A stretch of 64,000 bases of DNA from Geothrix sp. (GTDB taxonomy: Bacteria > Acidobacteriota > Holophagae > Holophagales > Holophagaceae), in assembly GCF_030219325.1 (NCBI RefSeq), contig NZ_CP126625.1, forward strand, positions 2,468,857 through 2,532,856. Direction: 5' to 3'. Below the pieces are notes generated by a model, which did no database searches, had not been told where the DNA came from, and was given only the letters and a program-made list of their open reading frames with translations. Made by a program: the position numbers and the translations under genes. Shown here piece by piece: positions 52,666 through 60,183 of this stretch (its first letter is position 1; every line of letters begins with the position of its first letter).

Positions 52666-52755
52666 GGAGAGATGGCCGAGTGGTTGATGGCACCGCACTC
52701 GAAATGCGGAGACGGGGAAACCTGTTCGGGGGTTCGAATCCCTCTCTCTCCGCCA
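52666..52755 (+). tRNA. tRNA-Ser, anticodon CGA
   Basis: Acceptor arms GGAGAGA and TCTCTCC with encoded G73 and CCA. The anticodon stem CCGCA/TGCGG encloses CTCGAAA, giving anticodon CGA (reads UCG). A long variable arm and T loop GGGGGTTCGAATCCC mark a class II serine tRNA. A terminator follows at once. Confidence 0.95.
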
Positions 52756-52786
52756 GATAAGCCGCCGCCAGGCGGCTTATCTTTTT
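52756..52786 (+). terminator. Rho-independent terminator of tRNA-Ser(CGA)
   Basis: An 11-bp perfect stem, GATAAGCCGCC/GGCGGCTTATC, over a GCCA loop, followed by TTTTT. The U-tract runs directly into an inverted copy of the tRNA 3' end. Confidence 0.93.
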
Positions 52787-52822
52787 GGCGGAGAGAGAGG
52801 CATTCGAAGTCACTGAAATGCT
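52786..52822 (+). repeat. Inverted partial copy of the tRNA-Ser 3' end
   Basis: TGGCGGAGAGAGAGG followed by ATTCGAA is the reverse complement of the acceptor and T arm of the tRNA-Ser gene just upstream. It continues with GTCACTGAA, which is not tRNA-derived but recurs at 59843 and (one change) 60044. It ends near the stop of the convergent kinase gene at 52833. Confidence 0.8.
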
Positions 52823-52832
52823 GGCCTCCGCC

Positions 52833-59696: not shown

Positions 59697-59787
59697 GGAG
59701 AGTTGTCCGAGTGGTTTAAGGAGCACGCCTGGAAAGTGTGTGTAGGTCAAAAGCTTACCGAGGGTTCGAATCCCTCACTCTCCGCCA
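59697..59787 (+). tRNA. tRNA-Ser, anticodon GGA
   Basis: Acceptor arms GGAGAGT and ACTCTCC with G73 and CCA encoded. Anticodon stem CACGC/GTGTG (one G-T pair) encloses CTGGAAA, giving GGA (reads UCC and UCU). A long variable arm (AGGTC...GCTTACC) and T loop GGTTCGAATCC identify a class II serine tRNA. Confidence 0.95.
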
Positions 59788-59788
59788 G

Positions 59789-59816
59789 AAAAGCGCCCCC
59801 GTTCGGGGGCGTTTTT
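59789..59816 (+). terminator. Rho-independent terminator of tRNA-Ser(GGA)
   Basis: CGCCCCC/GGGGGCG stem over GTTC, followed by TTTTT. As after the first tRNA-Ser gene, the terminator is nested between the tRNA 3' end and an inverted copy of it. Confidence 0.92.
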
Positions 59817-59821
59817 CTGTT

Positions 59822-60153
59822 TGGCGGAGAGTGGGGGATTCGAAGTCACTGAATCACCGGCTTTCGTTCTGGCTCGGGGAGACAGCCCAGTGGGCTGTCG
59901 GACCCGAGACAGAAAGCCGAGTGATTCGTGCGGCCGGAAGGGACGCCGCGCAGCGGTGGCCCTGGAGGGAATCCCCCTGATGGATCATCCTTCAGCTCTC
60001 CGGGGAGTCCTTCATATGGCGGCGGTGAGAGGGGATTCGAATTCACTGAATCACCGGCTTTCTGGCTCGGGGAGACAGAAAGCCGAGTGATTCGTGCGGT
60101 CGGAAGGGACGCCGCGCAGCGGTGGCCCTGGAGGGAATCCCCACTCTCCGCCA
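59822..60153 (+). repeat. 332-bp tRNA-Ser-derived element with terminal inverted repeats and two internal copies
   Basis: The left end TGGCGGAGAGTGGGGGATTC is an inverted copy of the tRNA-Ser 3' end; the right end GGAATCCCCACTCTCCGCCA is the same sequence in direct orientation, so the element has 20-base inverted ends. Inside are two copies of one unit (about 59838-59985 and 60036-60140). Each has AATTCACTGAATCACC-like left sequence, a long hairpin (GAATCACCGGCTTTC pairing with GAAAGCCGAGTGATTC) and an identical 60-base GC-rich tail with one change. The first copy has an extra inner hairpin GACAGCCC/GGGCTGTC. No credible coding region. This fills most of the 59788-60198 gap. Confidence 0.75.
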
Positions 60154-60155
60154 GA

Positions 60156-60183
60156 TCGAAGCTGCCGCAAGGCGGCTTCTTTC
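60156..60183 (+). terminator. Terminator-like hairpin at the right end of the tRNA-derived element
   Basis: GAAGC and GCCGC pair with GCGGC and TTC around AAG, followed by TTT. Its place directly after ACTCTCCGCCAGA copies the layout tRNA 3' end plus terminator seen at both tRNA-Ser genes, so it could be the remains of a third serine tRNA locus. Confidence 0.5.

Follow-up and report, generated by a model that had tools for sequence, protein, structure and literature searches.

RtT is regarded mainly as a small RNA of Escherichia coli and its relatives. At E. coli tyrT (RtT/rttR), the tRNA-Tyr end is repeated directly as 19-nt copies every 178 bp, and an inverted T-stem (GGGGAAGGAT) lies at the opposite side of each unit; the Rfam RtT model (RF00391) pairs the direct tRNA end with the inverted T-stem. 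At E. coli proK the arms of the RtT unit are those of tRNA-Pro, the terminator is duplicated and a second unit is truncated. In K-12 MG1655 (NC_000913.3), a full RtT unit and a truncated one are found downstream of proK (3708616-3708692, minus strand); the NC_000913.3 record lists no RtT at proK, and other strains annotate RtT there. When the proK unit was used as a query, at least 80% of it was covered in 2650 of 5426 complete E. coli genomes, about half, and a partial match was found in 1438 others, counts that may include tyrT matches. Two E. coli strains differ at proK by exactly 168 bp, which is one unit. RtT has been reported as an RNA that is released from tyrT and other tRNA transcripts, and its homologues gave Northern signals in Actinobacillus (PMC4986893).

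The window analysed here is a stretch of 64,000 nucleotides from Geothrix sp. (assembly GCF_030219325.1, contig NZ_CP126625.1, positions 2,468,857 to 2,532,856). On balance, we believe that the feature following its tRNA-Ser(GGA) gene is an array of RtT-like tRNA-tail repeats, whose recombining bodies are closed by copies of the tRNA end and whose working form would be a sense-strand RNA. The parts of this locus, and of a smaller one in the same window, are as follows.

59697-59787, plus strand: tRNA-Ser(GGA) gene (ARAGORN; Rfam tRNA).
59788-59819, plus strand: terminator-like hairpin 1 with a T run, in the spacer between the tRNA and unit 1 (read from the sequence).
59822-59844, plus strand: left arm, an inverted copy of the T-arm/acceptor/CCA end of the tRNA (23 nt, 96%; own-tRNA test).
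59835-59975, plus strand: class I unit 1, a three-way-junction body with a type B apical hairpin (covariance model R1, 153.9 bits, unit 1 having belonged to the R1 training set; folding z -5.3).
59969-59977, plus strand: right arm of unit 1, truncated to GAATCCCCC, with neither acceptor nor CCA (sequence).
60018-60041, plus strand: inverted arm of unit 2, degenerate, pairing with the right arm in the fold (sequence).
60032-60141, plus strand: class I unit 2, with a shortened apical hairpin (R1, 100 bits; folding z -5.7).
60135-60153, plus strand: right arm, a direct copy of the tRNA 3' end through CCA, GAATCCCCACTCTCCGCCA (sequence comparison).
60156-60183, plus strand: terminator 2, like the single terminator at the orthologous site of genome G013 and that of genome G020.
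52666-52755: tRNA-Ser(CGA) gene (tRNA gene call).
52784-52829, plus strand: partial unit after tRNA-Ser(CGA), consisting of the left arm and the start of the body (L010; 2-mismatch motif match).

A sequence-only reading of this DNA had described the same layout, from the tRNA and its terminator through the inverted end, two structured units and the direct end to a second terminator, and its coordinates are correct. The 332 bp it gave for the element is the span from the inverted end to the direct end. It had also seen a 60-base internal block with one change; the single difference holds, and the repeat is slightly longer, at 71 nt (59906-59976 versus 60072-60142). The inverted end does not arise by chance, as none of 41 other-isotype tRNA ends of the genome scores as well. 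Both units fold far better than their shuffles (z -5.3 and -5.7), none of 200 shuffles being as good. We accept that the unit is probably non-coding, though open frames of 80-92 aa extend over the region in several overlapping GC-rich reading frames.

The Ser(GGA)-type arrangement recurs in the window's genome after tRNA-Ser(GCT) and tRNA-Ser(TGA); Ser(CGA), within the window, and Gln(TTG) are followed by partial units. A motif search found the arrangement in 27 of 60 genomes, nearly all of them from one genus, Geothrix. Using R1, a covariance model of the class I body built from 23 sequences, we found class I units in 40 of 47 Geothrix genomes (29 of the 30 good-quality ones). Among 199 sampled genomes of the phylum, R1 had matches only in Geothrix and in two further genera of its family. 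We could match 84 of the 96 class I units to a tRNA or tmRNA. These were four Ser tRNAs, Gln, Gly, two Glu, Phe and tmRNA; visual inspection of the 3' ends identified the tmRNA loci, and Rfam confirmed two of them. Every assigned first unit starts 38-56 nt past the tRNA 3' end, with later units spaced about 200 nt apart. Weaker model matches with the same layout were found after Val, Met, His and Leu tRNAs. Pro, Met, Arg, His, Asp and Thr tRNAs carry a different body, class II, which came to light in the census of tRNA genes described below. R2, a model built from 9 of its sequences, had matches in 39 of 41 Geothrix genomes, with part of the matches mapped to tRNAs.

The search of the genome and its relatives that the sequence-only reading had recommended yielded many copies at tRNA genes, with clear size variation, rather than one copy of constant size. 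Contrary to the earlier supposition, the use of these ends is not specific to serine, since Gln, Glu, Gly, Phe, Pro, Met, Arg, His, Asp, Thr, Val and Leu tRNAs and tmRNA also bear units. The same spread bears on the suggestion that a third tRNA-Ser gene was lost and that the element is its scar. A terminator and a direct copy of the tRNA's 3' end do remain at the locus, as such a scar would leave them, but the same arrangement stands after many tRNAs with a conserved body that is not tRNA, and inspection of the sequences of the loci revealed no remnant of a D-arm or anticodon-arm in the unit. These results contradict the scar, to which we now give virtually no credence.

The arms of the units vary with the tRNA that they follow. 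The left and right arms are GGGATTCGAA and GAATCCC at Ser loci, GGGGATTGAA and GAATCCCC at Gly, GACGGAATCGAA and GATTCCGTC at Phe, GGGGAATCGAA and GATTCCCC at Glu, and GGGAGTCGAA and GACTCCC at tmRNA; locus-specific arms are also present at Val, His and Leu tRNAs. In a census of the 45 tRNA genes of the window's genome, 17 have their own inverted 3' end within 160 nt downstream. The census is two-peaked, with these 17 scoring 13-23 and the rest 5-10.5, and for each of the 17 only 0-2 of about 42 other-isotype ends score as well. A simple pattern test found the full right arm through CCA in 40 of the 96 class I units and its absence in 56. The arms copy the local tRNA and are not the fixed ends of a transposon, and nearly all units lie at tRNA or tmRNA 3' ends in one orientation. 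An ordinary MITE does not behave in this way: fixed, site-independent inverted repeats were not found, the arms vary with the tRNA and 84 of 96 class I units are at tRNA/tmRNA ends. On the tRNA side, tRNA-Gln(TTG) itself seems to lack an encoded CCA (it ends CCCCAAC-G) in the window's genome and some relatives, and CCA is encoded in others (loci L011 [G000:C1:1924341], L223, L238 and L245).

In class I and class II alike, the tRNA-derived helix closes a three-way junction, and covariation is strong. In the class I alignment 97.7% of cells pair and 10 pairs change on both sides; in class II these values are 94.0% and 17. Because the sequences were picked by similarity and the structures come from the same alignments, these percentages are biased towards the structure, a bias that the controls address in part. 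Covariation was 0.190 for class I versus 0.081 in shuffles (none of 500 reached it; slid controls at most 0.059) and 0.426 for class II versus 0.188 (none of 500; slid controls at most 0.124). One P2 pair of class I varies between G-U and G-C, with G-U on the tRNA-sense strand in 13 of 23 sequences, and this pair together with a U-G pair of class II favours the tRNA-sense strand. DNA-level correction of palindromes could also maintain the covariation. We noticed a second repeat, CTGACTCGG..CCTCCGG..CGGTCGGATGGT, in or next to the apical hairpin of several units and often right after GGCAGG; it looks like another palindromic repeat family (L029, L039, L048, L061, L070, L183, L213, L220, L234, L240 and L279).

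The resemblance to RtT is one of anatomy. The Rfam RtT model matched none of seven Geothrix loci with E up to 0.05, and R1 scored the E. coli tyrT locus no higher than expected by chance. As neither model finds the other's sequences, the link between Geothrix and RtT is architectural and not a proven homology. Rfam as a whole produced no credible match over the units, only low scores under the gathering thresholds, and literature searches found no description of such units in Geothrix or Acidobacteria. Phage and plasmid sequence collections held no match to the Geothrix units; IMG/VR gave three motif matches. Our best reading is that the Geothrix units are new families with an RtT-like architecture, and that classical transposition is not supported.

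The number of units at orthologous sites ranges from 0 to 3. Orthologous Ser(GGA) sites may be empty, hold a partial unit or hold one to three units; in genome G013 the window's downstream gene is present, but a terminator and a decayed remnant are all that the site holds. The comparison of empty with filled sites was a rough one. Tandem copies within one array have a mean identity of 93% and a median of 98%. Such near-identical copies in varying number agree with the earlier view of a recombining unit on tRNA ends that has undergone recent tandem duplication. Between genomes, in identities taken from one alignment, non-Ser units resemble their orthologues (0.766), and these sites look vertically inherited. 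Ser units are as similar between different Ser genes as at the same Ser gene (0.633 versus 0.629). Thus, bodies seem to move between Ser genes.

Based on these data, we propose a model for how tRNA-tail repeats are built, how they change and what they do. A unit consists of a structured body and the helix that closes it, in which the right strand copies the T-stem and acceptor of the tRNA, sometimes through CCA, and the left strand is the inverted complement. Units may be gained and lost through homologous recombination between the direct copies of the tRNA end and the terminator, and bodies may be exchanged among tRNA genes with similar ends. Template switching or gene conversion would copy the sequence of the local tRNA into the arms. 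A retro-mechanism that uses a present-day reverse transcriptase was rejected, as the enzyme is absent from the window's genome and from 32 of 47 genomes.

The second part of our model concerns the product. We propose that the Geothrix units probably act as sense-strand RNA, made by read-through from the tRNA. The conservation of the sense-strand fold, together with the RtT precedent, suggests an RNA with a borrowed tRNA-like 3' end. This end may let tRNA-maturation enzymes trim the RNA, much as in the reported release of E. coli RtT. Because a terminator lies between the tRNA and unit 1, read-through must occur or the unit needs a promoter of its own. The idea of 3' processing is weakened by the 56 of 96 class I units that have no full CCA right arm.

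The main rival to an RNA, which we consider rather unlikely, is a selfish DNA hairpin. It would be a non-autonomous mobile element that an enzyme supplied in trans, a tyrosine recombinase or another, inserts at T-loops, so that the conserved fold would be a DNA substrate. The left junction falls precisely after the inverted T-loop (TTCGAA/TTGAA) at unrelated tRNAs, and the direct copies of the tRNA end resemble attL and attR. The terminators of the window fit this scheme as well, the inner one being like that of genome G029 and the outer one like those of G013 and G020, as if new material had entered at the tRNA end. Tyrosine recombinases, including an integron integrase, occur in 46 of 47 genomes, with no link to the units shown. 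However, among the loci viewed no unit has a gene of its own and no candidate enzyme lies beside the units. Y1 transposase is found in 4 of 41 genomes and reverse transcriptase in 15 of 47, neither of them in the window's genome, and the integron owns canonical repeats of a different type. Moreover, the arms match the local tRNA and not a donor, and the E. coli element of like anatomy, RtT, has been reported to be an RNA (PMC4986893).

Since tRNA ends are classic integration sites, the units could instead be worn attachment-site remains of integrated islands, in which a fragment of the tRNA end was left behind. Of the 12 class I units that were not assigned, several lie behind displaced tRNA 3' fragments (L056, L187 and L188) or at contig edges, and such fragments would suit this explanation. 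Its difficulty is that the structure of the body is conserved across tRNAs and genomes and duplicates as a unit, and the covariation in both classes also speaks against it. Furthermore, in the displaced loci the unit lies beyond the tRNA fragment, on its downstream side, and hence probably predates the insert. We regard attachment-site remains as quite improbable and retain the RtT-like array.

At L056, L187, L188, L042, L047 and L050, tRNA 3' fragments with a tail unit seem to be displaced by inserted DNA, and their break points are in the anticodon loop, the T-arm or the acceptor. Their arrangement suggests islands that integrate into those tRNA genes. At the right end of L040, a tail array adjoins what appears, from sequence, to be the start of an IS30-type transposase.

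We also offer a broader proposal, a tentative one with a real prospect of being right: tRNA-tail repeats may be a general bacterial class in which T-arm-specific copying brings hairpin bodies of unrelated origin into a common architecture, with an inverted tRNA end, the body and a direct tRNA end in that order. RtT and the two Geothrix families would then be independent cases, and a large share of a genome's tRNA genes, together with tmRNA, could be decorated. The presence of the RtT architecture with unrelated sequences on many acidobacterial tRNAs and tmRNA makes this a general and testable phenomenon. It raises the questions of how a structured tail bearing a copy of the gene's own end comes to be added to a tRNA gene and of whether such a tail affects tRNA supply, 3' processing or integration at tRNA genes. 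The E. coli proK locus, with natural partial-unit and one-unit strains, is suited to a laboratory test.

Several known systems share features with the Geothrix units. REP/BIME sequences with RAYT are likewise short palindromic intergenic repeats in arrays, but the Geothrix units are restricted to tRNA/tmRNA ends and to one orientation. A REP/RAYT origin was rejected, as Y1 transposase is absent from the window's genome and present in only 4 of 41 of the genus. Phages, ICEs and genomic islands that integrate at tRNAs also have a direct repeat of the tRNA 3' end at their distal boundary, whereas the Geothrix units are about 140 nt long and non-coding, have an inverted copy and grow in tandem, and no integrase was seen in a unit.

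Integron attC sites are imperfect palindromes of similar length with structure conserved above sequence; the CCTAAC...GTTAGGC-type ends of Geothrix integron repeats are absent from the tRNA-tail units. Geothrix does possess a true integron, but as the repeats of this integron are of another type, attC identity was rejected. This chromosomal integron lies outside the window at G000:C1:704000-715300 (L299), where at least 16 attC-like 130-nt repeats (CCTAAC...GGTTAGGC) adjoin an integron integrase (TIGR02249, 463 bits); genome G033 has a similar array (L303).

The closest likeness is to RtT (RF00391; tyrT and proK). In both, a structured unit follows a tRNA, with an inverted T-stem on the left and a direct 3' end with CCA on the right. 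Both occur in tandem and in variable number with arms that follow the local tRNA, which is Tyr or Pro in E. coli, and both have a duplicated terminator, the last unit at E. coli proK being truncated. The Geothrix bodies differ in that they are well-supported three-way junctions of at least two classes, carried on many tRNAs and on tmRNA.
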